A stretch of DNA of 64,000 bases from Arbacia lixula (lineage: Eukaryota > Echinodermata > Echinoidea > Arbacioida > Arbaciidae): NCBI GenBank assembly GCA_963669155.1, contig OZ022588.1:16022670-16086669 (forward strand), given 5' to 3'. This document shows, one piece after another, positions 20,218 to 64,000 of this stretch (positions are counted from its first letter, which is position 1; the number at the start of each line of letters is the position of its first letter). The notes beneath the pieces were generated by a model. That model ran no database searches and was not told the DNA's origin. It saw only the letters and a program-made list of their open reading frames with translations. The position numbers were made by a program, and so were the translations under genes.

Positions 20218-23200
20218 GTAAGTACATCTCAAGACTTCCATTCTTAAAGGGAAAGTCCACCCTGAAGTTAAGTTTTTTTTATTAAAGCTAAATATGAAAA
20301 AACATAATGTCAGTGAAAGTTTGACAAAAATCCGTCAAAGGATAGGAAAGTTACAGTCCTTTCAAATTTTGATTTTGTGATGTCACTGCAAGGTGCTCTT
20401 CAATATTTCATGTGCTGCATGATTCTGTAAATTTTTTGTGTTTTTGATGGAGGAATTAATCTTTTTCATAGAGGTACATGTATGTGTCTAAAAATGTGTG
20501 TCTAATGATATATATGCATATCTTCTTGAGAAAATTGAAAATGTTACACAACATTAATGGAGAGCATCTCACATGTGACATCACAAAATCAATTAAAAAA
20601 AAGTAGTAACTCTTTTGCCCTTTCTTTGCCCGTCAAACTTGAATTAAAATGTTTCTTTCATGTTTTTGCTTTTATTAAAACCAACTTATAACTCCAGGGT
20701 GGACTTTCCCTTTAACTTTGTTCTACAGCTCTTCAGTTTGATGTGCTTTTTTTTTGTGTGAAGAAGATCATGTACCAGTATACAAAGTATGCTTACTCCC
20801 ATGTTGTTGTTGTTATTCTTCGATGATGGGTCTGAAGGTCAGCCCTCAAGCGTACATGTACATATATGTTAGGGTTACATTATCATGTGATTACCATTGC
20901 TATTGTTATTGTTACTTCTTATTTCCTGTATTTGTGAAGTGTTGTTGTTGAAAAAAAAAGTCCCCCCAGAATTGCAGAATTGAAGATCATTCACCCAATC
21001 TAAAAATAATGTCCATCTTCAATTGTTGTTTGATGAGTTATGGAGTACTTCCTGTCAGTTTTGGCCATGAACTGAACTGGAGGGGTTAATAGCAGAATTC
21101 AGGCAGACACATTCCTCCCCAACATGTGTTCGTGACGGCTGGTGGCTAGCTGGCTGGTACATACATACCTACATGTATGTACTTGAACTACACAGCATTG
21201 TGTGTGTTGAACTACATACATGTACTGTACATGTACATAAGTCTCCAGTACATTTTGAAATGTTGTTGTGAATGCTAAACCAGCAATGTCAGGCAAAAAG
21301 ATGTATACACATTTATTTTCTTTTTAAGCCTACTGTTATGAATCAAACATCCCGATCTGAGTTACCCTGAATTTTATTTATCACTATTATCAATTTGGAA
21401 AATACTTTTTTTCAAAGGGGCTCTTACATGTACTTGATGTTATTTCTGTGTTTTTATTTTTGCCCTACATGTTTTTTTTTTATTCCTTGTAACACGTGCA
21501 TACAGTAGACATACAGTAGGACCATGAAGGTGCAAGTTATGACAATGTTAAACAAAGATGTGTGAGCAATACAAAGAATTTGGTCATTACAATTACAAAA
21601 TTACAAAATATGAGGGAATGGTGAAAGGGATGAGTAGAAAAGAACGAAATCTTTTTTTGAGAAAGGTATTGACAGTTGATGTTTTTACATTCATTGCACA
21701 ATATAGCTGCGTACACCACTTTGAAGTCATAGCTCATAACAGAAATATTCAACACTGCAGTTGTGTTGCATAATTACAATGACAGTACATGTATACAACA
21801 GCTCAAAGGAATTGGCACAGGGAAATGAAAAGGGAAGAAAGTGAAGGAGCCGCAGTTTTAAACCGCAGTATGTTTTGTCCAGTTCAGCATGAAACACGTT
21901 GCTTTAGCCTAAAATGCATCAGGTTTCATGCTGAACTGGACAAAATATACCACGTTTAAAACTGCGGCTCCTTCCCTTTCTTCCCTCTCCCTTTCCCTAT
22001 GCCAATTCCTTTGAGCTGTAGTGTAGCGTTTCTGAGTATAAAGATATATGTAAGAGTGATTTAAAGAGCCCTTAAAACTACATGTCACTCCTGCTCGTGT
22101 TTCATCTTCTAAGAAGCAGAGGGGAGGCTAAGGATCAATATTAATCAAGTACCCTAGGGCTGCCATGAAGTGTGTCTGCAATAATGGCCATCCTTTCTCC
22201 TAAGATTGCTCCCCTCCCTGAGATTGCTGAAACAAAAATGAGGAAAATAGTAATGTTTGTTGAATATTTTGTAGTATAAGGACTGTAGTATTATTGCCAC
22301 TGTTATTTATGCGATATACAGCATTTATGTTATGTGAAGCCTTTCTTTTAGAATAACAGTATCAGATAAAAACAAGCTCCTAGAGTTTCATCTTGTAAGT
22401 AGCTAATATGCTCGGAGCTGAGAAGTAAAGATCAATCTTAATCAAGTACCATCTGACAGCCATCATGTTTAAAGACAGGATACCCTTTTTACAGGCCAAG
22501 AAAGAAAAGTGTTATTATAAAACACAGAAAATGGAAGAAAATACTGTATTAGAACTTCCCTACCAATACTAGAACTGGAAACTGAAGTAGAATTATAGTG
22601 ATCACTAGATTTCGAGGAGGTTTTTGGTGGGTTCTTGTTCTTGTAACCTAGAGACCGCTGTTTACTTTGGCCTGCACCACAGTGCGTTAACAAGGATACT
22701 TTTTCACTTTTTCTGAAAACGTTTGTGAAGGTTTGACTGTGAGATTTCGTACACGATATTGATAGATTACATACTGCTGATAGTGCTGATTCCTGCCGAG
22801 TTTTGCAAATGGTCCAAGAGATAGCTTTCAGACAGTTATTGAAAACGAACCATGTATAGTCCCCGCAATGTGAGGCTTCTTTCAAGCTTTTGCTTAGAAT
22901 ATTCCCTCTCAGTATTTCTTCATCATAAACATTCATGAGAGGCTCAAAATTAAAGATCAAAACCATCACTTTCTTGTCTAATAGAGCAACTATCTGATTA
23001 CCATTGGTATGATGATGTGCAGTAAGCCAATGGAGATATCAAGGCCTGGTAATGTAGGGTTACTGTAAGTGTACCTGCAATACCAGTATCTTTACTGTTA
23101 ATAAAAAGAGATGGCTTGTGAAAACAGAAATATTGATAGCGCATTTGGGGATAAATTTCCTAGCATCTGCATGCATTAGAGCATACTGTGCATTGTGTGA

Positions 23201-26200: not shown

Positions 26201-29200
26201 ACCAGTATTGTACATTACAGCCCAAAGGAATTGGCATAGGGAAAGGGAAAGGGAAGAAAGGGAAGGAGCCGTAGTTTTAAACCATGGTATATTTTGTCCA
26301 GTTCAGCATGAAACATGATGCATTAGCCTAAAAGGCATCAGGTTTCATGCTGAACTGGACAAAATATACAGCGGTTTTCGGCTCCTTCCCTTTCTTCCCT
26401 TTCCCTTTCCCTATGCCAATTCCTTTGAGCTGTAGTGTACTTGTGCAACTACATGTATATGCAGCTGAATATATTTGTAGGCACTTCCTCGCTGAGGTGG
26501 CGTACAGTGAGTGTGAATGAGCTCTTATTATGCGGATGGAAAACGCAGGAACCCAGCGTGTTATTGCGGAGCTTGAACAAACAAAAACAAGCTGGCCGCT
26601 TCAAATTGTTTTGAGATTCAAGCAGCAGTCTGAAGGGGTAATTGCACCAGCATCATGCATACATGTAGGTTGCCGTGACGTCAGTGTTGGGTTGTATTAT
26701 TTATTGTCTGTGTTCATACATATTGCATGCTGCAGAAGAGAAGTTTGCAGGCACAGACTAATCTGGTTTCCAGGCTGTTAAACATTTCTGATCCCAACTG
26801 ACTAAAAATAGAGTACAAAATTACGCTATTAAAGAATGATAATTTTATCATTCTGGGTGGAGCTACATGAAGAGAATAAATTGAGTATGATAAGTCTACT
26901 GTAGCCAGACTCTTCATTTAATAGTTTGATTGAAAAATGCCAACAGCCTGGAAGCCAGGCTACATGTAGCTAGCACAAACCCTTATTTATAGTCAGTTAC
27001 TGAGCTAAATACAAATGAAGCTTCAAAGCTTTTGGATATGTCTAATCCCAACTGATAGATAAAGTCAAATACTCATGGCCATAAGACTAGTCACTTTTCA
27101 TTCTCCTCTTTTCTCAGTCTGTAGAAGAAATCAAGGATGATGTGAAAATATACTGAAGTCTGTTGAAGCCAGACCCCTTTGTGGAATAGTTTGGATTAGA
27201 TATGGCCAATACTATGGATTAAAATTATACAAAACACTGAATAAGAGTAGAGGAATTGAAAAGAACACCTCCAAATTCGCCAAAACTGCTGTTAAATCTA
27301 CCCTGCACTCTATAAAAATGAAATTAAGATGAAATGCAATTCCCCATACCATTACCTAAATATTTACAATTGTGTGGTTACAGAATAGAATTCCTTGGAA
27401 TGTCAAATCATTATCATTCCTCCCACCCACTCAGTCGTTTAGGTTGAATGAACCCCTCAATGATTACAGTTTGTGGCAAGTCCTCCAAGTCACTGATGTT
27501 TAAAATATTTGTAGCTTTTGTGCTGCTCTCACGAGCTATCTTTTGAAAGATGGAAGAATCATTTTGACATGGATGAGTATTATGATTTCAATCATATTTC
27601 AACAGTTTGCGGCAGTCCCGCACAAGTTTTAATATTTTTTACCCTCCAGACACAAACTTTTGTTTTTATTGGAAGAAGAATTTTGGCATGGGAGAATACC
27701 AGGAGTTTACTGACATTGAATCGTTGTCCAATGACACCAGTTTCCAAGGAAAAAGAAACTTCTAACAATCTGGTCAAACCACAGAAGTTTACTCTGGGGC
27801 ATGATATGACTTTCTTGCTAGGAATTTGAAATCAATTGAGTGGTTTGTTATTGTTTACAGTGCAAATACTACAGTAGCATATATCAAACAGATTTTTACC
27901 AGTGAATATAATGAACAGTTAATGTTTGATATAGATGCACAGTGTGTTGTTCAAATCACCTCTTTCTTTCAAAGGAAAGACGTGTAAATAGAACGATCTG
28001 TGGAATACTTGAGCAAATCAATTAATTTAGATAATAAGTGAGTTTGGCAGAACATTGGAAATATAACAAAACAAGTTCTGCAATTGCATGGAACTTATTT
28101 TTCTGAATTCGTATTCAATGCTGATTAAAATTTTGTTAATTGTATTTGAAGACATTACCCATACATGTAGATTATTTCTCAAATCATGAATATGTGCCAA
28201 AAATATGCAATCAAGAAACGTGTGTTTTTTTCAAGGATCGAAGACCTACCAAATTTTGAAAACAAATTCTTGTGTGCTATTCGAGTCAGAAAATGTACAC
28301 ATATATATTTGCTTTGTTCAGCTTTGGTTGCAGAGTGTATTTGTACAGTATCTTATCTCATATACATACATCAAGTCAACCAAAAAATTACTTTTTTTCT
28401 TTCCAGGGCTCTTTTTGGAGAAACTTAAAAATTTTCCAGGGCTACTTTTTCATTTTCCAGGGCTCTTTTCCCACTTTCCAGGGCTACAATTTCTGGAGCT
28501 ATTTCGCGTTTTTTTTTTTTTTTTTTTATTTGTGTGTGTGTGTGTGTCAGGCGCGTACGCAGGATTTTTGTAAGGGGGGGGGGGGGTTACGAGAAGTTGG
28601 TGAGCATGGGGGGTGGGGGTGGTAGTGGTGGGTTTTGAAGTGTTTTTTCTTCACAAATTTCTCCATTCCGTCAAGTCTCAAACAGTGCTCTTAGTGGGTG
28701 GTGGGGGGGGGGGTTCAGCCAAAACAAATTTTTAAAAATGGAGGCGAAAGAGGAGGGGGGGGGGGGGGTTGACCAAAAAAAACCGAAAAGGGGGGGGGGG
28801 GGGGTTAACAAATTAAAAAGTTGATTCAGGTTAAATACTTCATTGGCGTCAGCGACTCAGCTCAGTCAGAGCCAGGGGCATAAACTTAAACATGCACAGT
28901 ACATACTGTACGGTAAGTACAGATTGATATATATCTTGTAATCTAAATTTAAGATTTGATAAATGTTATGTAGATCTAATGTAGTTGAATCTTGAAGATT
29001 TTCAATGTCATGGAATATGAAAAAAAAAAAATGCACTGCAAACTGTGTTGCCCGGCCATAAATGGTCACAACGGGATAGTCACAATCAAACAATAGCTCT
29101 CCCGTAGTTACGGCCGCCTTACTAGTCGGCAAACTGGTATGCCACAGCAGCTGCCATACCCGTTTGCAGACTAGTAAGGCGGCCGTAACTACGGGAGAGC

Positions 29201-32200: not shown

Positions 32201-35200
32201 AACTTGTGATGGATTGTGGGACATGCGCTGGATGAAACCCGATACGTGAGATTTCTGTGCTCACAGAAGCTGACGAACATGACTGATTAGTGTGCCAGAT
32301 TTGCCCTTAGTGTCCAAGAGAATTGTAAAGGAGGAAGGCATGATCATGCATGATCATTATTTTCATACGCGTAATTTGATGAAATACATCCATAAAGATG
32401 TATATAGCTGTTCACAAAAGCGTGTATATTGCTTATAGTAGTCTTTATTCTCGTGGCTAATCTCAATTGTAATGATTAACATTTCTGTCAATTTCATACA
32501 GTGAACAATGGACATGTAATAAAAGCTGAACTTAACATAAAACAGCATCGATGAGAATGACAATTTTTTTTCATGAATATTTATATATAGAAAAGAAGCG
32601 AGATATTGTTTTGAAAAAACAAAAAAACATGTTCAATCGTGATACTGATTTCAAACAAATGTACTGCATACAGTAGCCTTTGACTATACATTCATCTAAA
32701 GGGTTACTAAATTAGAAAAAATAAGTTCCCACTAATCTATGGAAAATTATCCACTGAAAACGAATTTCACATTTGTTTGCCGCAATAAAGTCTTATTTTG
32801 ACGAAAATTTGAAAAAACATATACCTCCGGTGACGTCAGAAAAGTCAAAATGCCATAAATGCCAACGGCGTGAACAAATTTAGTAAACCTATAAGTACAA
32901 TTAGCAGTTATCACTACAAAATTGATCTTTCCTACATGTATGACTGATTCATGAAAAACAATGTGCTAGTTCACAACAGCAAATCAAAATTGATTTGCAG
33001 AAGTCTTCATGAATTGATGAATTGATGGAATTTGATCCCCAATTGTATGTCCACAAGACCCCATATGTGTACTCTAGAAGGAGACTGGTGATTGAATCTT
33101 TCTGATTAACTCCAGTGGGTGCATGCCCTGTGTAACCCCCAAGATAGGATAACATGTCCTGTCATCTGGACATCTCCCTGTAATTGAGTTTTCTGTCTCG
33201 TGCTGTGTAGGTTATTAGCAATCAATGAATGAATACCCAGCAATGAGTCTTGCATGAATGCAGGGCTTAGGCTAACCTTCATAATCCTGGATTAAAGAGA
33301 TCCAGGGGGTTCATTGTGATATTTAAGATCTACCATCTGGTGAGTAAATTTTGATTAAGATGTTTAAACCATACAGCATTACAGTGCTTCAAGTAGAAAA
33401 AATATACATCATTTGAGTGTCCTGAATATGACTTTGGTGTAGAAAGATTCTAGAAGGTAAGAAGATTTAAGTACTTTCACTGAACCTAAAGAGCTTCAAA
33501 TACTGCCGGCGTTTTAGTTGTTCCTCAGTGTGTGTAAGAATTGCTTCGTTTCAATACAAAATATATTATTTTTTTTTGAGAAAGAAACCTCCAATGGAAG
33601 TAAGAATTATTTCAGATTTGTAATTTGAGTTATAATTGTAATTTGAGACAACCGATAGCAGAAATACTAGGAGGTTATTTTTTGCCATTGCAAGTGGGAT
33701 ACGATAGTAATAACCTCAGCAAATTTTGCTACTTTGACAGAAAGCAGTTCAGTTCAGAAGGAAACAGCCTTTCCTTATGAAACCAGTTAGGACAAGGACA
33801 TAAACCCTGTTTAGGTTTAGACCAAAATTAGCCTGAAAACAAAGTGTTATTGTTAAAGACAGCCCGTCCCATTTTCAGATCACCACAAAACCATCGGAAC
33901 ATTGGCAAAATATAAAGAGAAGTGTTAGCAAGCTGTATATTTAAAATTTGAAACTGATACATAGCGTAAAATTCAAATAATGCACGTAAACAACGTCTGA
34001 TTACTAGTCTTTACCTCAGGCTCTTAGCAGTTTGTGTTGAAATATCTGCTTTATTGATTAATCTGTTTATTAAATTATAAAACGCATTATGAACAAAAAA
34101 TGTTCTATAGAAGGAATCATCTCCAAAGTTTGGTAATTACTCATAAAATTAGGATTTCACACGTGCATGATAACGACATAGATGCTGTAACAAAGACTAA
34201 TACTTTTTTCGTAGTACGAAAAAAGTCGGTTTGAAATTTAACGGCTGAAATTTTTCCACATACAGAAAGCTTGAACATGCTATATTCTTAGAAATGGTCT
34301 TGAATCACCCTTTCTTCAATTTACGATCGTGATAGACTATTTCAAATTTTAAGCTTGCAAAAGGGACGGACAATCTTTAACATAGACTGGGTAGCTTATT
34401 TGCAAAGGTCATGAAACTTGGGGGGGGGGGGGGTAATCAGCAGTTTACCCTAACAGTAACATGTGTAAAATCTCACATTTATTGCTTCACGACCCTTTTC
34501 AGGAAAAGTGAAACACCATCTCTTCATTATATGTATCTATCTACACTCCAGCTCAAAGGAATTGGCAAGGGAAAGGGAAAGGGAAGAGAGGGAAGGACCC
34601 ACAAATATTTTGTCCAGTTCAGCATGAAACATGATGCTTTTTAGGCTAAAGCATCGTGTTTCATGCTGAACTGGATGAAATATACCACGGTTTAAAACTG
34701 CGGATCCTTCCCTTTACCCGTGTCAATTCCTCTGAGCTGTAGTGTACATGTATATCCTCTCATCCCAGCATTCACCCTCTATCTCTTTTGTCCTTCTCCC
34801 TTTCTAGATTGTTGTCCTCCATGTAGTTGAATAACACTAAAATGTGAAATACAATTTGGCTTGCATACCTAAGTCTGCAATTTGACCCACGCGAGGTCAA
34901 AACTGGTATTTATCAAATAACTGGGGTGAGTGAGTGAAGGGAGGCCAGTGTGGAACTGATTTCACTGGCTTTTGATACCAAATATAGCAAGGCCAATAAA
35001 TTACTGACACACTGGACCTCTGGCAAGGTGGGAGGACACAGGCTTTCAATGCATCTCACAGTCTTTCTACTGCTAGACCTCTGTGTATATATAATACATT
35101 GTTTGCAACCTTGCATGCAGTAAGAATCCTCCTTGATTGTACCTATAAAATATTCAACCTGCATACTGTTCTGTTTTGTTTGACTCCTTTGTATATACTG

Positions 35201-41200: not shown

Positions 41201-44200
41201 CTAATGAATACGCGATTGCAAATTCAGGCTAGTTCCCGGATCAGCAAAATAGCTCGCTATTTTGTCTGATCGGGCTAATGAAGATGCAACTTGAGAGAAT
41301 GAATGAGTGACTAGTCTTGTGAGTACCAGACTCTGACCTTTTTATTTTCAATTAGAAATGTCCCTTCAAATGGACCAGATATTTACATGCCACATGTATA
41401 TCATTTCAGCAGCAATGTATACAAGTCCCATAGAGACACATTTTGTCCAGCACAGGAAGAGATGATCAGTAGAGTCTCAGGAGGCACACAGCCACAGATT
41501 GAGTTTCACACAAGCCCTGTTTACCCATCATGTAGACCAGAGGAAAACATCTCATGTCAAACTCAGATCATGTTCCTCCTGCAGAAGTGTAGTGACGTCC
41601 AACAGGGCATAAGAATGTTGCAAGGTCATTGCGCTTTTCATGTCATATGCCCCCTCTGTACCATCAGTTGAGAGTCCCATGTCAATTATGTACAATACAG
41701 CTCAAAGGAAGGGAAAGGGAAAGGGAAGAAAGGGAAGGAACTGCAGTTCTATACCGCGGTATGTTTTGTCCAGTTCAGCATGAAACATGATGCTTTTTAG
41801 GCTAAAGCATTGTGTTTCATGCTGAACTGGACAAAGTATACCACTCTTTAAAACTGTGGCTCCTTCCCTTTCTTCCCTTTCCCTTTCCTTTTGCCAATTC
41901 CTTTGAGCTGTAGTACAACACAGCGTATTGCCTATACTTGTTGTTTTTGTTATTAGAATTAGAGAATGTTCTACCTCCTAAAGAAGCTTTGGTACAAATA
42001 GCAGTTGCTAATAAGAAACAAAGGGTCATTTGAGCTTTATAATGCTACCAATAAAATCCATATGTCTTGAGTGTGATGTACATGTATATAACAAATTGCA
42101 ATGTGACACATCAAGAAGATTTTCCCATGGATGCAGTTTAAATAAAAAAAAATATACATTGCATGCAAAATTAACATTTTAATACACTTTATCCTGTGCA
42201 ATGTGTGTATGTCACGCTTGCCATCATTCGTTGGTTAGTCATGTAAACATTACATGTAGGATGTATAGTTGGGGGATATTTCCGAGCATGGGCATGTTTT
42301 GGTGTTATTAATGGGAGAGATGGAAACACCTCATCATCAAACTGTGGAGTGCTTGATCTAATCATTGGCGATTAATCATGTGTTTGAGATTACGACTGGA
42401 TTACGCTCAGATCCAGGAAGGAGGGTTTACAGCTTCAACGTTCAGGGCTTTTAGAGAAGCGTTTGCTTTCAAGATGCCTCGAGGAAATGGCCTAGATTTT
42501 GATGACCTATTTTCTTGCCCTTTGGGGTGTACAAGAGTATCAAATGTTTACACCCTTTGAAATAAGATGTTATGTTGTCTGAATGACATACATGTTCTAC
42601 TGCTACATGTACATGTAGTAGAAGACAAAATTGATTAGTTCAGATGGGCAATCTTTCAATTGGCCGTCTAACTTTTCTCACTATTATTTTGCTTATGCCT
42701 GTGTTCTGTGTGCTCAGAATATGTGGGTCCACAGTGCTGTCACGTGTAGCCTAGATTGTGCTCATCATATGTCACTTCTTCCTTATTTATTTTGTGATTC
42801 CAGTTTCAGGTTTATCTTTCAGTTTGGTGAATTGACAAATTCTCCTCATTATGCTTATTTTCTTGTTAATTCCAATTAATTAATTTTCCTGATTGGTTTT
42901 CTTGTTCATTTTAGATACGTGTCGCTATCCACTGGGCATGAACGACAAGGAAATCACTGACGAACAACTCTCTGCCAGCTCTGTGTACCAAAACAACACT
43001 CTATCGTTTGGCCCGCAAAATGCAAGGTGAATATTTTTTTTTTATTTGCGTAAGTCTTCTATATATAAAGATATTGTGTTCATTCTTTTTTCGATTTTTT
43101 ATTGATTACTTTAAGAGTTGATATTTATATCTTTACTCAAATTGTATTTTATATGTTCCTTCCCTCCTTCAATTGTGTTACTGCTAAAGAATATACACAT
43201 TATATATGTAAAGGAAATATGTCTTTTTTCTTCACTTACATGCACTGTGAAATGAAATTTTAAATTGAAATGTATAGTGCATTCCATCCATTGAAACTTA
43301 TTTACCTGAGACGGGTCAAATTATTAGGCTGTTGGGAGGAAAGCTATTTGGATACATCACACAAATGGCTTATTATAATATTGGACAGGATTCTGACATG
43401 ATCATTTCAGCTCTGGCTTACATGTATGTAGAAGCCATCATTGTTTCCATAGCCCCCAGCTTAATCGACCCATTAAAGAGCCCCATAATTACCCATAATT
43501 CACCCCTCAATCAGCGGCGTTTATGACTCTGGTGATTGAATCAATAATATCCTGACAATCCCCCGGAATGCCAATGAATTATAATGCATTGCACAGACTA
43601 GAATCCGGGATAGGCGATGGCTTTCTGAATGAGTCCTAATTCGTTTGTCAAAACGGGACGCAGTTTATAGACTGCAAAGGAGCGGAGTGGATTTTAGATT
43701 CGCTGTGATGGGTTTGCGAAGTTATTAACCACATGTTTGAGGAGCTGTCGCAAGCTCTGGCAAGCTTCTCCCCTGACAGTGGCCTAGAGAGGAAGGATTA
43801 GCGAGACGGGAAGGAAATATAGCATGACAAGTCTTGCAATCTCGGCTTATCTATGTTACCCTAAATAGAATAATACATGATGTTTAGGGGCGGTTTAAAA
43901 GGGGAAGCAAAATCCAGATTTTTTGGGGGGGGCATTGATGTATTTTAGAGCACCTTACACATGTGTGCAATATTTGTTTTACATAGTAAAATTTAGCTAA
44001 TTCAAGTCACATCACGAGATAATGTTACCCATACATATATGACCACCACATATACATGTAAGTGTAAATCTTGTATTTTAAAGTACCCCTGTATTCAGAA
44101 TTGTGGATATTTTGTAATGTTCAGATAATGATAATAATCCTTTAAAGCCCAAGATAAAGGACATGGCACCCATATTATTTATTACCTTTATACCTTTATA

Positions 44201-47200
44201 ATTACCTTTATTATTTTTTTTTGCCACACTTTTTTGTGTACAACAAAATAATCCTAGTGATCTTTAGGTCCTCAAGAAAAAAGTACCTGATAATACTTTG
44301 CTAATAGAGAGCTCTTTTGCTGCTTTGCAACCCGTCTTCCAGGCAACGAGAACAACAAGTATAATTCCCCCCAAAGCTCCTGTAAACAACAAAAGAGCTT
44401 TAATCACTGATTTTTTTCATTTGGATAGCATGGTTCAGGGTGTTCATTTCAGGATATCAGGCTTGGACAGTGGCCCCCACAAATAAATTCCCCCTCTCTC
44501 TCTCATCAAGAAAATGTAGAGAAAGAGCCCCTGCACAATTGTTTCATCACAAGGATCATAATGCACAGGCCACAGCATGGATCAGAGTGTTCATAGCATT
44601 ACTTCAAGGACCTGTCTTATTAATAATAGTGATAAGAATAGTCTGTTCTTATATAGTGTAATTTTACAGTTAAGTTTCAGTGCATATAAAAAAGAGGGCA
44701 AAAGAGAGAAAGAAACAGAACCGCCTTCAGGCAAAGATAAAATGATTGACACTTACAATTCACTATCAAAAAATTAAAAAATTAAGATTTGCAATTCATC
44801 ACAACTTGATATCAATCCTAACTCTGGACATTAGGGATAGGGGATTAGACTTGCGATCGTTTCAGGTTAATCGCAACTCTTTATATAGATGAGTGCCTAC
44901 GTTTGACTTGTAGGCCCCGCATATTAATCTCCTAAACTCCCCCCATCCTCCAGACTCCATCTAAACCAAGGAGCAGGGGCCTGGTGCCCCGTCAACGCGG
45001 AGCCGGAGTCCAGCGGGCGCTACGAGTACCTGCAGGTGGACTTCATTAACCTGACGGTGGTGGTGGCAGTGGCCATCCAGGGGCGCTGGGACGACACCTT
45101 CGGCAACGAGTACACCAGCAACTTCCGGCTGGAGTTCTCCCGGGACGGTGGTCGGTCTTGGGTCCGTTTCCAGCAGCGAGAAGGCGAGGAGGTGAGCTCA
45201 TTTTTTTATTTTATTCATGTTTATTTTTGTATACATATTTCTGTACTTCTTAATTTTTTTTGTATTCTCTTGTTGATATATTGGTATAGGCCTATATTAT
45301 ACTTCAATTTATTAATCTAATTGGTGTATTGATATATTATTCATTTAAATAGCTGAATTTGCTGGTTACATTTTGTTTGTTTTTTCTCCTTTGCCTTCTC
45401 CTCCCTCTCTCCCTCTCCTACTTCAGATTTTTGCTGGGAATCGTGACACCAACACGCAGGTGACCGTTCACATCAGCCCGCCGATCATCGCCCAGGTTGT
45501 CCGTGTGGTGCCTGTGGTGGAGATTACAACCCCTGTGTGCATGAGGATAGAATTCTATGGCTGCAAGTGGCTGGGTGAGTCCGGGGTCCATGCATACTGA
45601 CAGAAACATGAAAGTAACATTATTAATGAAGGTTTGATTGAAATCTGTCAAAAGATAAGGAAGTTGTGATTTTTTTAAAGTTTTGATTTTCTGACGTCAC
45701 GTAAGAGAGATGCTCTCCAATTTTACCTGTGCATTCTATATATAATGAGACATATTTTTACATACATACCTCTATGAAAAAGATTGATTCCTTCATCAAA
45801 ACCAGAAAAAGAGCAATTTATGGAATCATACAGCACATGACAATATGGGAGAGCACCTCACACGTGATGTCACAAAATCAAAACTTCAAAACATCATATC
45901 TTTCTTATCCTTTGACTGATGTTTGTCAAACCGTCACTAACATGTTTATTTCATGTTTCCACTTCTATTAAGACAACTTAACTTCAGGGTGGACTTTCCC
46001 TTTAAGCTCAATCAGATGGGATGCAGTTTTTAAAAGTAAAGAATAGTAGTGGAAAGGACTGTGGGACCTGGGGGTGTTCCACTAAGCTGTTCGTAAGCTA
46101 CAAACAACTTTATGAACGCCTGGTGACTCCTTCTTGTGCTAAATGCAATATGTTCCTGTTTTAACATATTGGGAATTTATTTCCAACAATCCTAATAAAA
46201 TTTGACAAATCATAACTTTTGTATTCAGACACTTGTTAACAGAAGAGTTTTCATTTCTAAACGTCAGATTTGAACTTAGCTGATGGGAATCAAAATAATT
46301 GACAATGTGATTTAGCACAAGAAAGGATTCCAGTCGTTCGTAAAGTCGTTCATAAAGTCGTTCATAGCTTGGTGAAATACCCCCCAGCAATCAATGGAGT
46401 GCCATGATTGTTAGTCTCTTTCTTGTTTATTCACGATGCTAGAAGGTAATCCTCTCACAATTATGAGCAATATCCACATCCAGAGATGAAAGCAAAATAG
46501 TAGTTATGGCCCGTAATCATTACCTTCTACTACCACATATCTCATAGTTCTGAAACTTTCTTTATTTGGTATTATGATGTGATAGTGCTGTAGAGTATGT
46601 AATATGCATAACGAATGTGACATGTTTCCATGGTTACATTATGATATCACTCCATGTTAGAAAAAAGTGCATTTTTGTGATCTCCTGCAATTATTAAGGA
46701 GCACAGACAAAACTCCTAGAAAACTTGCCGGGAGAGATGTATAATGGACTGACCCACTCCGCCTGTCTCTGTTGCCTAGCAACCTGAGTAATGATGCCAC
46801 TTTGTGCACAGTATGGTTGATGAGGGACCGATATTAACCCAGATCCAGCGTGTTTAGGGATAAGGCTCTGCCAACAACTGAAACTGCATTTGAAGGCTTA
46901 CTTTTCTTGGCGTGAGCTCCTTTACATATGTGATGATTTTGTGATAAACGTCTCTTGATATTGAGGATGTGCATACTGGCCATTGGAGTTTCATCAGAGA
47001 AGGTGAATTTAAGTTTGTACTTGCTAAACACTCTTCAGTCTCAATGATAGTGAAAGTTGTTTGGCAGTGCTGAATAATGAGATAAGGATGACAAGAAAGA
47101 AGAAGAGTTAAACAAATTATTGCACAGAATCAAGGGTTCCTTTAACTGTTAATAGTTACGTACACTACACTCCCATTAAAATCAATCTAATACTGTGTGG

Positions 47201-48543: not shown

Positions 48544-51500
48544 TCTTCATGCAATCTATGTATTTGGAGCTTTCATGATATCATTTCACAGAGATGGATG
48601 GTTGAGAGATAATATTGTCCACCAGGCTGAATCAGGTTTTAAAGTAGACTTGCTGTTGCTGGTATGTAAAGAGCATGTTTGGTGGAAAACAAAACATGGT
48701 GAGGATATTGATGGTGAGGATACTGAATAAAACCATAAATGAACGAATGAAGCCATTACTCCAAACAGTTTACCCATTAAAGTACTGTAGATGTTCCATC
48801 AGGAGTATTGCGTATCTCATTTTACTACATAGTGTGTCACTGTCATAAACTTCCGTCGCCACGGTGACCGCACTCCATACACAAGTACATTTATGTACTG
48901 TGGATCTCAAAAGCAGGAGGGAAATATATATTGTGTACTCACTGTTCCCTTGTCTAGGTATGGTGATCAAAATGTCATAGTCATATTGATGCTTTTTGCT
49001 GATCAGAAAACACACAATGCAAAAGTTGCAAAGTATAAATGGACTCTCAGTTCTCGTACATGTGCAATTTAGGAAAAATACAATGTAAAATTGAGGTTCA
49101 GTTTGATTTATATGGGCAACAATAGTCCACATTGACTGTACTGTATGTTCTTGTAATTGTTCTTTCGCACCATGCATGAACAATGCAATACCCCAGACTA
49201 GCAGTCATCTTTCTTGAATTTAAAGCGCCAGCTCAGGGGGCTAGTCATTAAAGATTTTGTATGCATTATTATCAGGGTTTCATCCATCCAGGTTTCAATT
49301 TCCAATCCAAACTGGAACATAGAGTCTAGTACTCCAAGACTAGTCATTAAAGATTTTCCTTTTTTTTTCTCAAGGAGCTGTAGATGAAATTGAGAATGCT
49401 ATTAAGTCCAGTGGAGGTAGACCCCAATAGTGAATAGTTTGGTAAAGAAGTGCCCAATAATAGCCCAGAAGCAAATGTTAGGCTTTATTAGCGACCAGCA
49501 AGTGGGTCAGTGGTGTCTTTGTTAACAGAGTATGTTGTGTATGTGCACTCCACAGCCTAAAAACTAGGATAGATGACATTCTCCTTTATAGACATGAGTG
49601 TCCCATTTGCAAATGTCATGGAACTCACCAGGAAGCAGCAGTGTAACCTAGCGATAACATGTAAGATGTCTCACAGTCATAGCTTCACAAACATTTTCAG
49701 GGAAGCTGGAAAACTATCCTTGTTTACGTTTGAAACCCACTGACCTTTGTGTACATTCATGTTGTCCTTGATTTCAGTTCTATTATTGGGTGGGAACTTC
49801 TGATGCAGTATCTTCTTCCATTTTCAGTGGGCATAAGGGACGACACCCTGTCTTAAAACCAAGGGCTCCTAATGTACAAACAAGGGTCTGAATGCAGAGA
49901 CTATGCTCAGCGGACCAGTGACTGTAATGGCCTGGGAATTATCATCCCCTGGTGTCAGGCTCTAAATCACCAAGAAATATGCATTATTTGAGAAATGGCA
50001 AATGTGTATATAGTGAGGGGGTTCCCTTCCCCTCAATAGTCTCATAATTTATTGCCTCGCCTCAGAAACCTGTTAGTTCTGTAGGCTGTAGATCTGTGAG
50101 GAATATGGATGGGTACATAAAATGCTGGATGGTCCTTCAGTGCTATGCCTACATATTGTATGTGTACTGCAAGTGAATTTACATCACGTCATTTCTATCT
50201 TTATTTTCCAAAAGTGAAGATGTGATGGGATGTATGTTGTGTTATTTATGATATACATCATGCATGACGTCCTAACAGGCTGCCCTACTGTAGATCAAGG
50301 ATTTGTGCATGGTTACAAGTGTAAACACTCTCGCTGCCTGCTCAGTCATTATAATAGCCAGATGTTCCATCCAGATTCTGGTAGAGTTTTTTTTTCAGGG
50401 AATAATTACTTACCAACACAAATAATGATGTATAACTGGCCATGGTATTTCATCTTCATGTAGTATCATCAACATAAATATCAGAGCTGCCAAGTCTCCC
50501 TGATTTTGCAGGAGACTCCCTGAGAATAGACCGATATTACTGAACCAATATTACTGAATTGGATTTCATCACATCAACCAATCTCCCTCATTATTGAAAG
50601 ATTATTGTCATTAGGTTCTATGCATTTTATAGACATTGCCCTGATTTCTGATGAAATTTCCCCAAATCTTCCTGATTGTTGAATTTCAATGTTGGTAACT
50701 CTGAAATATAATGACATATGGGCATATACATTAATAGCATGTTAGATGTTCAACTTAAATGTTTTTGTTATGATTTGTCCCAATATGTTGGATGACAATT
50801 TATGTTATTATCACATGACCTGCCACTCATACATTTTTGCACCCTATTCTACATGGGATCATTAAGGTGTTAACATAGTCCCGTTTATTTCGTCTTCTCG
50901 CCCACAGACCACCTGAAGTCATACTCGTTGCCGGTCGGTGACACGAGAGGGGACTACGTCTTTGAGGACGATTCGTATGACGGCTACACGTTTGAGGGGA
51001 TGAGGATGAACGGCTTGGGGCAGCTGACAGACGGCATGATGGGACATAGCAACTACCGCCTCAGCCCCTACAATGTGCCACCTGGGTAGGTGGGGGTAGG
51101 GATGGGAGTGGGGAGGGGGAGGGGAAGGGAGGGGAGGGATGGGATGTGACATAGCGACTACCACCTCAGCCCCTATAATGTGCCACCTGGGTAGGTGGGG
51201 GTAGGGATGGGTGTGGGGAGGGGGAGGGGAAGGGAGGGGAGGGATGGGATGTGACATAGCGACTACCGCCTCAGCCCCTATAATGTGCCACCTGGGTAGA
51301 AATGGGTGTGGGGAGGGGGAGGGGAAGGGAGGGGAGGGATGGGATGTGACATAGCGACTGCCACCTCAGCCCCTATAATGTGCCACCTGGGTAGGGATGG
51401 GTGTGGGGAGGGGGAGGGGAAGGGAGGGGAGGGATGGGATGTGACATAGCGACTACCGCCTCAGCCCCTATAATGTGCCACCTGGGTAGGTGGGGGTAGG

Positions 51501-54500
51501 GATGGGTGTGGGGAAGGGGAGGGGGAGGGAGGGGAGGGATGGGATGTGATACAGCCCCTACAATGTACCAGCAGGGTAGGTGTTGTCCCATCATTCAGAG
51601 TGTGTTTTGTTGAGGGGATAGAAGTGCAGGAGGCACGAGAGAGGCTTGAGAATAGCAATCCACACTATAGGTTGGCTTTCTTCCACAAGGAAACATGAAT
51701 GTTGACTTTTATTGAATCCTTACACAGTAATCAATTGATTATGATGATCTACTGATAAGATCAGTTTTCAATTAAATTTTTCCATTAAAATTCAGAGGAT
51801 GAAACAATCAACAATAATAACGCTACTCCTTTGTGTGGTTCTGACCCGTAGGTATGAGTGGATTGGGTGGCGGAACGCCAGCACCCACAACCCAGAGATC
51901 ACCTTTGAGTTTGACTCGGTCCGCAACTTCACCAGCCTGGGTTTCCATGTCAACAACTACTTCACCAACAACGTGGAGATCTTCGAAGCGGTGGAGGTCA
52001 TGTTTAGCACCCGTAAGGGCCACTACTCGCCCCGCACGGTCTACCAGACGATCCGGGCCGACAGTGACCACCAGGACGCACGCTGGATCACGGTGCCGCT
52101 GGAGAACCGCGTGGCGCAGTGGCTGAAGGTGCGGCTGTACCACCGCGGCCGTTGGATCCTGATTAGCGAGGTCTCCTTCCAGTCAGGTATGTCACCTTAC
52201 AGCTCACCGAGTAGAGTTGGGGGTGGGGGTTGCAAGGAGAATTGGAGGTGGGGTGGCAAGGAGAATTGGGGGTGGGGTGGCAAGGAGAATTAGGGATGGG
52301 GGTTGCAAGGAGAATTATGGGTGGGGGTTGCAAGAAGAATTGGGGGTGGGGGTTGCAAGCAGAATTAGGGATGGGGGGTTGCAAGGAGAATTGGGGATGG
52401 GGGGTTGCAAGGAGAATTGGGGAGTTGCACCAAATGGGGTTCAAATGGAATCATAAATTGGGAGCAATGAAAGATGGGAAATTAAGCCTCTTTCAAAGCT
52501 TTACTTGTTTTCTCATGTGGTATTATGCCTAGCACGATTCAGTGTGTCTGCCTCGTAACGTCAGACTTGAGAAAAGCAACCCCCAGGAATTTGTAAAATT
52601 TTATTTGGGTCCTTTGGCAGTTTCTTATCAAATACTGGATCCCTTAAGTTACATGTTTTGATAATTCTAACGTTATTGTTTTTGCTATTAATGTTCCATG
52701 TTCTGCTCTGCTTTCTGTTGAGTATTACCATTAACACATAACTTTATTATTTACCTTAAATGATATATAGCAATCAATAATTAAAATGTATATTCCCTTA
52801 TACTCAAGAGGTAACTTGATATTTTATGTAGAGATGAAGATTTTTTTTCTGATTAGCTCTATAAAGTTTTATGTTACAATGAGTTAATAGGAAGCACATG
52901 TACATGTATACATGTTATCATAACTAATTATTGTAGGTGTAAAATATACCACCTATGAACATAAGAGAGAACCATTTCCCTTTTATAGCATCATGTATAC
53001 TCTATGGTATGATAAACTGGATGATAATACAAACATTGAACACACCCAAACCAAACACTGATTATGATTGCAGAGTTTTTTGATGCATTTGCAAAAAACA
53101 TATCCTTGTACCACTCTTACAGTATTGGGGCTGTATTGAGAGTAAAAGAAAAAAAAAATGTGGTTGTAGACATTTATATTCAGCTAGTACTTTTGCATTT
53201 TGATAGAATCGTTGCTCTGCATCATTTTGATGTCGCGTACATGTATGAATAAATGATACCAGATGACTCACAACTACACAGGGCAGGGACTCCATTAGCA
53301 TGGGACGACTGAATTGCATCAGTGACTTTCACACTATAGGAATGATCTTGTCTGCCTGTTCATACTCAGTATTTATCTGTATTTATATGCATGTTCCTAT
53401 GTTCTGATCACCATTATAAACAGTACAACAAGTATGTTTCTGTGAATAGCCTTTATCTGAGAATTTGAATGTGAATAGCTATTTTTACTTGCATTTTGTG
53501 ATTGTTGACATATATATTTGTAGTGATAATGAAATGGATGATGCGGTAGTCACGTTGAAGTGCACATCACACGCCACTTGCACTACCTTGCAATCGCATA
53601 GCTTTGAATGAATGCAGACTACATGTACGTACAATGTACGTACATGTACAGCCTTCAATTGCACAGTAAGATTATTCAGAATGCTCACATTTATATATTT
53701 AACAAAAATTGAGAAAGTATACATTGCAGATAGTACATCAATTTTTCTTTTAAGTTATAAAATACATCAATGTATGTGATTTATGGCAAAATATGCATGG
53801 ATAAATCTTATGTTTTCATTGTCAAGGATATTTGGCTCATCAAAATCATGGTGCAAAAGTGACATAAGTTTGTATGACTGAAGGTTGTTTTTAAACACCA
53901 GATTATAAATATGAGCCTGTAATAGCTTGTGAACTTGATTACAATAAGACCATTTCAAAAAGTCTATTTACACGAAAATATAAATGTATGAGCCCCAAAA
54001 TAAAATTGTGCACTTTTGAGTGAGCCATTTTTTTTGTGAGCATAGTGCATTTTTAGGTATACAAATTTGACTGTGCATTTCCTTCGTGGCTACCCTTCTC
54101 CTGCTGCTACTACTACTAGTACTACTACTGCTACCTCTATCTTAGATCTTTTGCTATGTTGACTTGCCTTTAACTTTACACAGAGGACAAACGTGAGAGC
54201 TATGACACTAGTACCAGTCCATATGACCCTCCCGTAGTGGGCCCGCCGTCCACAGGTTTGTGCATTCGCTTAATTAATTGCTCTTGTAGTCGTTCGTTAC
54301 CCAACCAACCGTGCTGGTGATTTGTTGTTTGGCTACTCATGAATTGGTGTGTCGGCCGCTAGTCTGCATGCGACTGCATGATGACGTATGTAGACGGCCA
54401 TTGATACCTCTCAATACCTCTCGCTAACTGGCATGATGAATGTAGTGCTTGCATTTGTATAACAGTAAAAAAAATATTCATTGTATTACATTCGCTCCGA

Positions 54501-55072: not shown

Positions 55073-58000
55073 TCTCTCCGTCTCTCTGTATCTCTGTTTT
55101 GTTGTCTCTCTCACTCTTAATCTCTGTTTTGTTGTCTCTCTCACTCTTATTCTTATTCTCTCACTCACTCTACCTTATCTCTAAATATTTGGAGTTTTTT
55201 CTCCTTCTTTTTCATTCCTTCCACTTTCTCATGACAATATGATCATGTCATTCATACAATTAATATTATTGTTATCTCTATTTTTCTTTCATTCCTATTC
55301 ACATTATGGTCCATGAAGTTTTCTTCGTCACATTAAAATGTCTGTACACCAATGCTTTGACTTAACAAATAATGAAACCCCACCACCAGCTTGCTTGTAT
55401 CACCATTTTCTCACCTTAGGCTTGTACATGTAATGCATGTGCACATTTTTTTCCCATTAGCATATTTTGAATTTCCATTCCCTGGTAGCTAGCCCTGCCA
55501 CTTCCAATCATCATCACCGGCATCATCATCGCAGAAAAGATTCATTGAACCCTGAAGTGCATGTTTCCAATCTAGCCTGCTCATCTCTAATATCCCAGTC
55601 TGTCGGTAGAATGCTAATACACGTGTCTCTTTCTGTCTGATATATTACCCACGATGCAGTCATTCGGCTCAATCTACTCTGTGTGCAGCTAACCGACCTT
55701 GAAAAAGTTTCCCTCAAGTATGTTGCGTTTCTTGAGCGTGTTTGGGGTGAACTTGTCGACATGACCACTGCACTCTGGGAAGTGAACTAAGCGTAAACAG
55801 CGACATATGTTGTGACATGTGTTCAGAGACCGTGTACATGGACATAGCGGGGCTTTAACCATTTTGGTGCTAGGCAAGAAATGCTGCTGTATGGATTTTG
55901 TGTGTATATAGTACCTGCTGCAAAAAAAATTGTATGAGCATATCAAAAAGGGGACATGAATCTGTAAGAATCATTTAATCTGACCAAAAATCTGAGTCAA
56001 GCAAATTAGCTGAAGTTTTGAAGAAAAATGTATGAAACAATTTTATGATGAACTAAACAAAAGTGGTATGAAAAAGTCTTATGTGAATAAGATAATCTAC
56101 AAGTCAATGGGTTGAATTTTTGCATGCAATGCATTTCACTGGCTTTTTTCTACTTCCAATAGGCAGTGTAAAGGAATATTCACATGTGCTCACAGCTTCT
56201 CACCTCCTTGCAGCAGTAGGCTACTTCACCATTTACCTAGGGCTATATAAATTGTAGTCAAGTTTGGAAAGAAATTTTAGGCATCCATTCAGTAGTAGCA
56301 GTAGTAGTAGGGATAGTGTGCTCCATCCTGTAAATGAATGAAAAACAAGTCGGATAAACATATTGGAACCAGAAGGATTTGAACCTGCAATCTACTGCTT
56401 ACTGGAAAGCAACATTACCAAGTAAGCTATTTCTAGTTCACGGATCAAGACATGATAGCATGGAAACAAATACCTTGATGTATCATTCAATCTCACTCCT
56501 TAATATTCATGAGTAGTCCACCATAAGGCCTATTGGGCTAGATTTTAGTGAAAGTGCTAGGGAGTAACTTTGTACTCTGCCAGGGTGGAGTAAACAAGAG
56601 TCACATTGCTTCCTAATGAACACACTTGTAGAATGAGAGGGATAGTTCACCCTGAAGATAAGTTGGTTTTGATACAAGCAGAAACATGAAGGAAACGTAC
56701 AGTACCAGTGAATATTAAACAAAAATCTGTCAAAGGATAAGAAAGTTATGATCATTTAAATATGAAAAAAACATCCTTCATCAAAAACAGAGATAGACGT
56801 CACAAAATCGAAAAAAAAAATCAAAAGATCATAACTTTCTCACCCTTTGGATTTTCATGAAGCCTTCACTAATATGTTTCTTTCATTATTTTATTGACTC
56901 CAACTTATCTCCAGGGTGTAGTATCCCTTTAAGGGGTGGTGATTAATACAATTTAATGAAAAAAACCCTCTTTTTGTATGTCTTGCTTTCCTCAAACTTT
57001 GGCCAAACTGCTTCTTTGGTGTATTCAAACTTGAAGTGTGGATCCTACTAACAACAACCAAATAGTGTGTGTTTGTAGTCCATGTGGATGGCTGAAAAGA
57101 TGTGTGGGCTTTGATTGATGTGTGACACTTTCATCCTGCAAATTCATGGATTATCATGTCTCATCATTTCCTCAAGTGGATGCACCCATAATATATTATG
57201 GCTTTATTCATGGCCTGATAAAACATTCCTTCCCCATTTTGAATAATTAATTTTAGTTTTGTGTGAATATGAATTGCTTTTGATTCTTTCATCAACCCCT
57301 GCAAACTATTTTTGTTTGTTGTTTTCATTTCAAACTGCATGTTGTATCTCAATATTTTGATATACCATTTATATTGTACATGTAAATACAGAAATACCTA
57401 CACTACAGCTCAAAAGAATTGGCATAGGGAAAGGGAGAGGGAAGAAAGGGAAGGAGCCACAGTTTTACACCGTGGTATATTTTGTCCAGTTTAGCATGAA
57501 ACATGATGCTTTTTAGGCTAAAGCATCGTGTTTTATGCTGAACAGAACTGGACAAAATATACCGCTGTTTAAAACTGTGGTTCCTTTCCTTTCTTCCCTT
57601 TCCCTATGCCAATTCCTTTGAGCTGTAGTGAATTCCATATGATAATTTGTCATTTGGTTAAAGTGAAAAAGGATGTTTCTTTTAACAATGTTTGATTCAT
57701 CCCATTGTTTTTTGGCTGTGTAGGGCCTGCAGATCAGACTACCGTGTCATTAACAGACGGGGATCCTAATGTCCCTAACACAGGCAATGGAACACACACC
57801 CCTAATCTCATCAGCTCAACCAAGAAGAAGAATCCTGGTAAGAAGAACAAATTATAGTCATCCTTTGTGCTTTCTCTCCTTCCTTCCTCTTTCCCTCTTT
57901 CCTTCCTCTTTCTCTCCATCTTATTTACTATTGACAACTTAAAAGGTTTTGTGGAAACTAATCATAAATGATTGTTCCCACGCTTCTGCACTATTTTTTC

Positions 58001-61000
58001 ACACCTCTTTCTCTCTCTGTAACTTCCCCATCCTCATTTGTGCTTTCTCTCCATCCTCCCATTTTCCTCCCTCTTTCTCTCCTTTCTCCCTCTTTCTCTC
58101 CATCTTATTTACTATTGACAACTTTGTTTTGTGGTAACTAATCATAAATGATTGTTCCCACACTTCTCCGCTAATATTTCACTCCTCTTCCTCTCTCATG
58201 TTCTGATCTCTCTCTGTAACTTCCTCATCCTGCTTTGTGCTTTCTATCCTTCCTCCCTCTTTATCTCTTTCCTCCCTCTTTCTCTCCTTCCCCTCTCTTT
58301 CTCTCCATCTTATTTACTATTGACAATGTTAAAGGTATTGTGGTAACTAATCATAAATGATTGTTCCCACACTTCTCCGCTAATATTTCACTCCTCTTCC
58401 TCTCTCATGTTCTGATCTCTCTCTGTAACTTCCTCACCCTGCTTTGTGCTTTCTCTCCTTCCTCCCTCTTTATCTCTTTCCTCCCTCTTTCTCTCCTTCC
58501 CCTCTCTTTCTCTCCATCTTATTTACTATTGACAACGTTAAAGGTTTTGTGGTTACTAATCATAAATGATTGTTCCCACGCTTCTGCCCTGTTATTTCAC
58601 TCCTCTTCCTCTCTCATGTTCTGCTCTCTCTCTGTAAGTTCCTCATCCTGCTTTGTGCTTTCTCTCCTTCTCACCCTTTTCACTTCCTCTAATCATCTAC
58701 TCTTGACAGTTCATTCATATTTGATGGGGGAATTGTCACACATCCTTGTTGCCATGGCAATAGATTTTGTACTCCCCTCTCCTCTCCATTCCCAGTTAGG
58801 GTTACCCAACATACTCAGCAGATTCATACAGATATCGTGGCAGCTTTTTCACATATTGTTACCATGGCGATATCATTTATTTTGTTTAGTATTGTATTAT
58901 ATTGTTTATTCCCCTCCCCTCACAGTTGGATGTATGCAGATATTGTGGCAGCTGTTTCATACATGTTCATCATATTTACCATATCCCCGATATTTGTTTA
59001 CTCCCATACCAGTCGGTGTGCCCAACACCCCCAGCAGTGGGTCTCCCATCGGCACGGTGATCAGCGTAGTAGTGACCATCCTCCTCCTCCTAGTGCTGGT
59101 CTTCGCTCTCCTCCTCTTCCTCTACCGCCGCAAGTACATCAAGCTCAAGCACCGCCTTCCCACCCTCGCCTTCGAGGCCAACTGCAACGGGGGCGGGGCG
59201 ACCATCAACAACTGCTCCACCCTGCCAGCCACGGGGGTACCGGTCGGCGGGATGGGGGTGGGGGGCGTGGGCATCGGCGTGACGACCATGGTGGTGCCGA
59301 GCCGGCGGTCCAACCCCACCTACCAGATCTCGCATCCACATGACGAGCCCCAGTACCACGTCATCGACAACATGATGGTGGACAGTGACGATGACTTGGA
59401 TGCGGCTTCCGATTCGTCAAGAATTTATGCAGAGCCCGAGAACCCAACCTGCACGTACAAGGACAAACACATGCTACAACACTATGCAGAGACGGACCTC
59501 ATTAATATACAGGTAGGCTTTCAAGCCAAACACTATTGGTATAGAGAAACACGAAAATTAAAATTTTCATTGAGCCAGGTATCTCTTCAATGAAATTAAC
59601 AGGAGAACAGAGACCCTAATTGCAAGTTAAATTTATTATTTTGCTACATATTTAACAATAAGTCTGATATAAACATAAACAAAACCTGAGCAGGAATATC
59701 AGAAAATCTAAAATTAGGATGCAATGTTGTGAATATGTGAGGAAAAGTGGATTCATTAATTAATCACTTTGCTTATTTGTATATTTTTTATATCAGCATG
59801 AAGATCAAGCATTGCCTAATGCAGTTGTGAACACTAGAAAGGGGGCTTCTAAAGTGCCCCCTTGTTACACATCTTGTGACAAGGAGACATTTTGTTCAGA
59901 TTATTGCTTTGATACAGATTTTACCTTGCATCTTCATAGTTTCTCAGTAAAGAGTAATGTATATACACAGACATTGACTTTCCTTTTCTTTGACTATTGC
60001 AGGGTGTATCAGGGAATACAATATATGGGGTACCATCGCAGTGTATGGAGAAACTCAACAATAGCAGATTACCTTGTCCAGAGTATCCCAGACATCAACT
60101 CAACTTTCTAGAACTGTTAGGGGAAGGAATGTTTGGAGAGGTAAGGAAGGAATGTTGTGACGGTGAGGAAGAAGAATATGAGGAGGAAGGGGTGAATAAT
60201 GAGATGGGAGGAGAGTGGAGGCTAAAGAAGAGCAAGAAGAGTGAAGGAAGGTACTACAGAAAGAAGGAAAGGGATGAATATTAGAGATGAGAGGATGGAG
60301 AGAGAAGGCATTGGAGAGAAAATGTGAGGAAGAGATGAAGAATGAAGACTAGAAGATGGAGAAAAGATCTAAAGAGAGAAGAGCAATGTTGCCAGCCCAT
60401 TTAGAAAATAAGGGGGAAATAGTTTTTTCCAGTCAGGGAAAAGTCAGGGAATTTAATAAAATGTCTCAAATCAGGGAAAAGTCAGGGAATTTTGATTGGT
60501 CCAAAATATGAAAGTAGTCAGTCAGACTCTGTGATATTTTCCATTGGATGACTGGCTATGGTGTGTGTTTTTTAGTGTAGCCTCCATGACTGCAGTACAA
60601 GTAGCTGTAGTGCATGACCAAAATAAGGTCTGTAGCTTTAAACATGATTGGGTACACTAAGAAGAGGAGTGCCCATTGCATCCAGAGCTGCTTCACCTTG
60701 CGCACCATGATGAGGGAACTGAAAATAGTGGCCTAGACTAAAGCCATGATGTCTGAGGAGAAGACTGTCCAACACTCCAACTTCAAAACCGGAAATGAGT
60801 TGAAATAATTAGCATGGAATTTTGAGACTTCATTGGGGAAAAATCAGGGGAAAATCAGGTCATTTAAGTTTTCTTGAAATGCTGAGAACCCCGAAGAGAA
60901 AACCCAGAAGGGTGGACAAAAGAAAAAAAGTGGAAGGAGGAACAGAAATGCTCAAACAATGATGAAAAGCAATATGAAAATAGAGGAAGTCAAAGGGAAG

Positions 61001-62764: not shown

Positions 62765-62770
62765 TCATGA

Positions 62771-62876
62771 TAAGGATTCGTGAATAAGAATGCCATGAGA
62801 GTTATACAGTGATATGACATTCATAAGGATTCGTGAATAAGAATGCCATGAGAGTTATACAGTGATATGACATTCA
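62771..62876. repeat. Exact 53-bp tandem duplication
   Basis: TAAGGATTCGTGAATAAGAA ... GATATGACATTCA occurs twice head to tail with no mismatch seen, starting at 62771 and 62824, directly after a miniature element. Confidence 0.95.
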
Positions 62877-64000
62877 TGTTAACTTCTCTGTAGAAGAAGT
62901 GTTATGCAACTGTAAACTGTTAAAGACTATGTTGAGTGAGCCAGGCATTTATTTAATTTATCAGAGTGTATGTTATGTGTTTCTTTGTCAGTGTGTACTT
63001 GACCCACTTTTTTTTTCTTTTCTTTTGTTGGCGGGGGCTCCCAATTATACCACACAATGACATCCTGTACTAGTATTTTGTTAACTTTGTAGGGGAGTCG
63101 GGTAACGTTTTGTTATTCGAGACCAAAAGTGTCCCGCTTACAAGGTAGCAGTTGTGACTTATGTTTGTGTCTGTATGTTTAATTGGAGGTAGGGGGTTGG
63201 GGGGGGGGGGGTATATGATATGGTTGACATTGAATGCCAATGCATTGTTATCAATGATAGTAGCAGATTCCTGACTCAGGATAGCGACGCACCCACAATC
63301 CATCACATCACCATTCGCAGACTAGATAATGTTCTATGACAGTGCGCCCCTAAAGTGACTCCAGTAGACACAATATCAGTCACACAGAAGCCACGTTCAC
63401 ATGTTTACTTATTCTGATTCGCCAACTCAATTGTGATGATCACAAGGATTAAAAACAAAAACACAATTTGTTTATAGTGATCTGTCGCCATTTGTGCTCT
63501 AAACGGATGATTTTAATCAACAAGCAGATGTTACAAAATAATTTTATTTTGGTTCTGTTTTGTAAACTTTCTTTTCTATTCCATGCTAGCTGTCAGTTTC
63601 TTTAAAATCCATACTTGTTCCATATTCATGTATATGGACATGTGTAAAATATGCACTGAAAAAAAAAATGACGGAAGTAATCATGTCATGATAAATTTTA
63701 CAAAATCATATTTTCTGAAAACACAAATTGTAACCAACATGATATGAATTCATTCTATGATTGCTAGTATGCATAGTATGACCACAACTAGAACATCTCT
63801 ATACATTAGTCCCACCCTCAAATATTTCTGTCGATACACAGCCGGGCTCAGGATCCGATTACTAAATGACTTTCACACCCACAGACAGCCGGTAATCAAA
63901 ACGTGGCAAAAACATCAGAATTTCCTGCGGATCTTTATCCCACGTGACGACAACATAAGGCGCTTTGTACTCCGGGGCACGTGGGAAATTTGAGCTTGTT

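Follow-up and report, generated by a model that had tools for sequence, protein, structure and literature searches.

The window analysed here, 64,000 nucleotides of the echinoid Arbacia lixula (contig OZ022588.1), carries on its + strand an animal gene that, judging from its predicted domains, is a discoidin domain receptor (DDR) gene. Directly behind one of its exons, the intron opens with a tandem array whose unit runs across the exon-intron boundary and thereby repeats the 3' end of the exon together with its splice donor. Tandem repeats that span exon-intron boundaries have been named "mirages" in amphioxus, where they are reportedly harmless to regular splicing (PMC3087553, PMC3902484). 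We consider it probable, at roughly 0.85, that the array is a mirage in this sense, an intronic minisatellite with a boundary-spanning unit, located in a DDR gene. The two exons and the parts of the array are as follows, with a slash marking splice junctions and donor strengths given as pairing energies with U1.

50908..51085, + strand: DDR exon (exon 5), start of the DS-like domain; 178 nt; PF21114, E=2.5e-11; phmmer match to DDR1; AG at 50906-50907, GT at 51086-51087
51038..51085, + strand: exon-derived part of unit 1; 48 bp; BLAST matches to 4 downstream copies
start 51043, + strand: unit 1; 105 bp
51086..51147, + strand: true donor TGG/GTAGGT, followed by the first G-rich spacer; 10 runs of at least GGG, G4Hunter 2.26
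51148..51252, + strand: unit 2; 105 bp; donor at 51191, U1 -11.1 kcal/mol, equal to the true donor
51253..51347, + strand: unit 3; 95 bp; degenerate donor GTAGAA at 51296, U1 -6.2 kcal/mol
51348..51442, + strand: unit 4; 95 bp; donor GTAGGG at 51391, U1 -9.4 kcal/mol
51443..51547, + strand: unit 5; 105 bp; donor at 51486, U1 -11.1 kcal/mol
51548..51584, + strand: decayed sixth copy; 15 bp deleted, several bases substituted, not followed by a spacer; donor AGG/GTAGGT at 51576, U1 -11.6 kcal/mol
51852..52186, + strand: next DDR exon (exon 6), rest of the DS-like domain; PF21114, E=1.3e-34

The assignment of the host gene draws on several lines of evidence. Pfam places an F5/8 type C domain (PF00754) at 44931-45209 (E=1.3e-9) and a second, weak F5/8 type C piece at 45421-45582 (E=4.4e-4, below the curated cut-off), followed by the DDR1-2 DS-like domain, which is the domain order of a discoidin domain receptor gene. 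The human DDR1 chains 8pe9_A and 4ag4_A span the junction of the two exons free of gaps, the nearest gap being a single residue located six residues upstream, and joining the donor at 51086 to the exon at 51852 reads GG/G TAT and leaves the frame open. Near 60000-60173, the peptide LGEGMFGEV resembles by eye the glycine loop of a kinase, in a short piece that has no match in Pfam.

Tandem Repeats Finder reported the array at 51038-51549 with a period of 105 bp, 5.1 copies, and a score of 814. Each of the five full units consists of the last 43-48 bp of the coding exon, the splice donor, and a G-rich spacer, with units 3 and 4 lacking 10 bp in the donor region. A preliminary description of the locus, made from its letters alone, had proposed a minisatellite built from the 3' end of the exon and its donor, and this is borne out by the repeat finder, the units themselves, and BLAST. 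It had also stated that the last 43 bp are repeated about five more times; we find four good copies and a decayed sixth, and the exon-derived part reaches about 48 bp rather than 43 bp if one extra mismatch is allowed. When the exon was compared with the window using BLAST, the 48 bp at 51038-51085 matched the four downstream copies with E-values of 1.5e-10 to 2.5e-15 and identities of 90-94%; the sixth copy yielded a 15-bp match at E = 0.008. Six exon segments of the gene were compared with the window in this way, the borders of four of them set by eye, and only the 50908-51085 exon has copies of its end downstream. Because of these E-values and the restriction of the copies to one of the six segments, we reject chance similarity as the origin of the array. 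The lone match of another exon segment (15 bp, E = 0.008) was judged to be chance.

Thus the repeat unit crosses an exon-intron boundary, is present in five full units, and duplicates splice signals, as the structural definition of a mirage has it. The amphioxus mirages lie in Adh3 and in the globin genes BflGb6 and BflGb9, with a reported unit length of 10-160 bp (PMC3087553), and a further report includes troponin C as well and compares imperfect repeats in PGBD5 with mirages (PMC3902484). The units described here fall inside this range of lengths. The array further resembles BflGb9 in duplicating the 3' boundary of an exon, and BflGb6 in that the inner copies are homogenised while the edges of the cluster are excluded (PMC3087553). 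It differs in its host gene, a DDR, and in its spacer with the potential to form G-quadruplexes (G4), a feature that goes unmentioned for the amphioxus mirages in the parts of those reports consulted. The preliminary description contained neither the mirage category nor the sixth donor, and it made no mention of the weakening of copies 3 and 4 or of the acceptor/donor pairs that enclose 21 nt in frame (discussed below).

The divergence of the copies gives some insight into how the array may have formed. Within the 43 bp, all four of copies 2-5 depart from the exon at positions 9 and 29 (4/4), two at position 16 (2/4), and one at position 13 (1/4). Copies 2-5 have in common another difference where the 48-bp part begins, as well as a T in the spacer where unit 1 has an A. 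Position 29 is C in copies 1 and 6 and T in copies 2-5, so the pattern is one of homogenisation, with copies 2-5 alike at positions 9 and 29 and unlike copy 1, and with copy 6 the most decayed. The codon that includes position 9 is AAC (Asn) in the exon and GAC in the copies; since the aligned residue of human DDR1 is Asp, copies 2-5 may have kept the older letter. The left junction has GATGGGACATAGC in the exon and GATGTGACATAGC in the array, and GATG is common to this junction and the end of the spacer, which fits a duplication through short homology. Under this scenario, the segment that probably became duplicated, via short homology with the spacer sequence GGGATGGGATG, reached from the GATG of the exon to the G-rich beginning of the intron. 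The inner copies would then have spread through slippage or unequal exchange, perhaps aided by the G4-forming spacer, with the two edge copies escaping homogenisation. The four-variant pattern formed in copies 2-5 by a CpG-type change at position 16 and the 10-bp deletion could reflect exchange between copies, although we do not take it as proof, as either change could have recurred independently. Variation of copy number among individuals, as the preliminary description also envisaged, is plausible.

The same variants bear on the possibility that a single unit was multiplied, or that haplotypes were merged, during assembly. For one of the globin mirages, the draft assembly is noted to have looked aberrant (PMC3087553), which lends this concern some substance. 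However, the units carry private variants and come in two lengths, and the edge copy is far more decayed than the others. Simple assembler stutter would hardly produce copy-specific variants and two unit lengths, and we regard an assembly artefact as very unlikely.

To compare the donors, we estimated their strength as the pairing energy with the 5' end of U1 over 11 bases. The true donor scored -11.1 kcal/mol; copies 2 and 5 equal it, copy 6 is slightly above it, copy 4 is weaker, and in copy 3 the match is nearly lost. Copies 3 and 4 read GTAGAA and GTAGGG where the other donors have GTAGGT. A GT stands at the donor position in 6/6 copies, including all five positions listed in the preliminary description (51086, 51191, 51296, 51391, and 51486), and 5/6 reach -9 kcal/mol or better. 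Its picture of a ladder of near-identical donors therefore holds for copies 2 and 5 but not for the weakened copies 3 and 4. The concentration of such sites is considerable: on the + strand between 200 and 63899, we counted 32 strong U1 matches (<= -9.0 kcal/mol), and 11 of these fall inside the 548-bp stretch of the array, five being donors at exon ends and six being GTs located 4 or 10 bases further on in full-length units. As copies 2 and 5 equal the true donor and copy 6 exceeds it, U1 pairing cannot explain the choice of the first donor.

The reading frame singles out what U1 pairing does not. Among ten donors tested, only that at 51086 joins the next exon in an open frame, while the other nine read PPG and then an in-frame TAG. 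The statements that the downstream donors first read GGG TAG, and that the first donor is in effect mandatory for the frame, are thus correct for all alternatives tested (9/9). The alternative donor 4 bases further on (TAG/GTGGGG) was rejected as a useful site because it includes the stop. These results could be taken to suggest regulated unproductive splicing, in which a fraction of the transcripts would be spliced at decoy donors, acquire the TAG, and be degraded, with array length tuning the output of DDR. Decoys 2, 5, and 6 match or surpass the true donor in U1 pairing, and 9/9 alternative donors lead to the TAG, but the donors of copies 3 and 4 have been weakened, and we think this explanation unlikely. 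The earlier suggestion that the copies act as functional decoys or U1 recruiters did not advance beyond speculation. The array is most likely near-neutral.

A G4 motif, whose folding is predicted, is present in 5/5 spacers, with G4Hunter values of 2.08-2.26. G-runs in the downstream intron are known to act as enhancers of splicing via hnRNP H/F (PMC10334793), and the G-rich spacers are plausible candidates for such enhancers. A G-rich spacer precedes every decoy, but none precedes the true donor, which has one only downstream. The first donor would be chosen as it completes a 178-nt exon with its own acceptor, with exon sequence upstream and G-runs solely downstream, in the position of an enhancer. 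We infer that exon definition and the arrangement of the G-runs jointly keep it in use, and that products of the decoy donors would hit the in-frame TAG, after which nonsense-mediated decay would presumably remove them. The disregard of the decoys is an assumption taken from the amphioxus reports, and position-dependent masking by G-runs as the main reason for it is only a tentative proposal.

The composition of the spacers also invites comparison with known unstable repeats. Minisatellites with G4 motifs and short loops are unstable in yeast, and more so when the loops contain pyrimidines (PMC5491262). CEB1 and CEB25, which are G4-forming unstable minisatellites, share with our array a G-rich tandem repeat with very short loops, but the DDR array alternates its G-rich part with exon-derived sequence, and its loops are mostly A. 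We give about even odds to the idea that G4 formation aided the expansion of the array.

Several points weigh against reading the array as a mirage with this history. The spacer loops are mostly A, some with T, compared with the pyrimidine-containing loops stressed in the yeast work, which weakens the G4 part and leaves the link to G4 instability suggestive. The proposed silencing of a donor by upstream G-runs would belong to the position effects of splicing proteins. As far as the covered text of PMC3165201 goes, position effects are given for Nova and others, and not silencing by upstream hnRNP H. Lastly, in the literature covered the name "mirage" is met for amphioxus only.

The units also contain acceptor-like sequences, which raises the possibility that the copies are in-frame microexons of 21 nt with the structure CCTCAG/CCCCTATAATGTGCCACCTGG/GTAG, whose inclusion would add PYNVPPG to the receptor. 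In copies 2-5 the parts of a putative microexon follow one another: a TGAC resembling a branch point, then an acceptor and seven codons, then a donor, which is degenerate in copy 3, and downstream of it a candidate G-rich enhancer. The acceptor/donor pair is found in 5/5 full units, counting the exon's own, and its 21-nt piece, placed between the two exons, keeps the frame open. The TGAC lies 20 nt upstream of the acceptor in copies 2-5, and the acceptor tracts of the copies contain 11/18 pyrimidines, the same number (11) as the real acceptor of exon 6. In addition, one report, going by its title, credits a G-rich repeat with helping a vertebrate microexon (Carlo 1996). Against this, copies 2-5 hold no strict YTNAY branch motif within 46 nt upstream of their acceptors, in contrast to the exon's own unit, where one occurs at -38; the acceptor of the 50908-51085 exon is richer in pyrimidines (15/18); the donor of unit 3 is weak; and the pair in unit 1 is merely part of the real exon. 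An upstream acceptor of the microexon type accompanies 10/11 strong donors in the array and 2/21 outside it, or 4/11 and 2/21 when the length must be divisible by three, by criteria chosen after the array was seen. The ten acceptor-bearing donors of the array are moreover not independent, as those within a unit share a single acceptor and one of the units is the real exon itself. Microexons are therefore highly improbable in our view, and we would give just as little credence to the further idea that the array may be a growing bank of ready-made microexons, in which a change of copy number could insert PYNVPPG repeats into the DS-like domain.

The mirage found here can also be set beside two other kinds of duplication at exon borders. 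Internal tandem repeats at exon-intron boundaries in human segmental duplications likewise involve minisatellite expansion across exon edges, but according to the portion of that report covered they may stay in the mRNA or yield novel introns (PMC2812944), whereas the DDR copies all lie within one intron and would be read into a stop. Intron gain via tandem duplication of AGGT or proto-splice sites similarly involves a duplicated segment with splice signals inside a gene; in contrast, the DDR array forms no new intron, and its copies sit within an existing one. Minisatellites near alternative exons are also reported in C. elegans (PMC4039745) and were left out of this comparison.

Other repeats were observed in the window. 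A second G-rich minisatellite, with a 25-bp unit in 8.4 copies, lies at 52213-52422 and starts about 26 bp past the donor of the next exon; the interval 52200-52425 has a G4Hunter value of 1.44, and the minisatellite had no match to the exon segments compared. As minisatellites follow the donors of both exons, two successive introns of the DDR gene begin with G-rich arrays. A tandem repeat with a 209-bp period (58010-58670, 3.2 copies) lies not far upstream of a transmembrane-like stretch near 59000. What looks like a fold-back mobile element is a repeat of about 210-240 bp with self-matches in both orientations, located at 21799-22026, 26211-26439, 34539-34749, 41687-41914, and 57395-57630, with a partial copy at 19247-19375; its arms bear G-runs such as GGGAAAGGGAAAGGGAAGAAAGGG. 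The left edge of the window is occupied by a 24-bp minisatellite of about 41 copies (2-1002), and arrays of similar 16-bp motifs, CATTTCGTCCAATAAC and GGCTATTAGACCAAAT, are found at 3454-3881 and 4283-4576, about 400 bp apart and by eye in opposite orientation. Finally, a 53-bp unit is present in two tandem copies with 100% matches at 62770-62877. A search of viral contigs for a relative of the two exons gave no match to the patterns used, and scans for tRNAs (bacterial settings) and against Rfam (at gathering scores) yielded 0 matches each.

Overall, the DDR array looks like a fresh example of the mirage kind, and, as no literature search was aimed at DDR mirages, we make no claim that they are unpublished. 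To this kind it adds spacers with G4 motifs that lie upstream of every decoy and only downstream of the true donor, as well as possible in-frame microexons of 21 nt, which are putative. The locus amounts to a natural experiment on the choice of 5' splice sites: the donors of units 1, 2, and 5 have the same core and a nearly identical exon context of 43 nt, three weaker or decayed relatives also lie within 500 bp, and one frame is open among the donors tested. The array thereby allows the part that U1 pairing can play in the decision to be told apart from the part that must fall to exon definition and the position of G-runs. If boundary minisatellites are widespread in this genome, they would also be a source of new splice sites, as has been proposed for the amphioxus globins.
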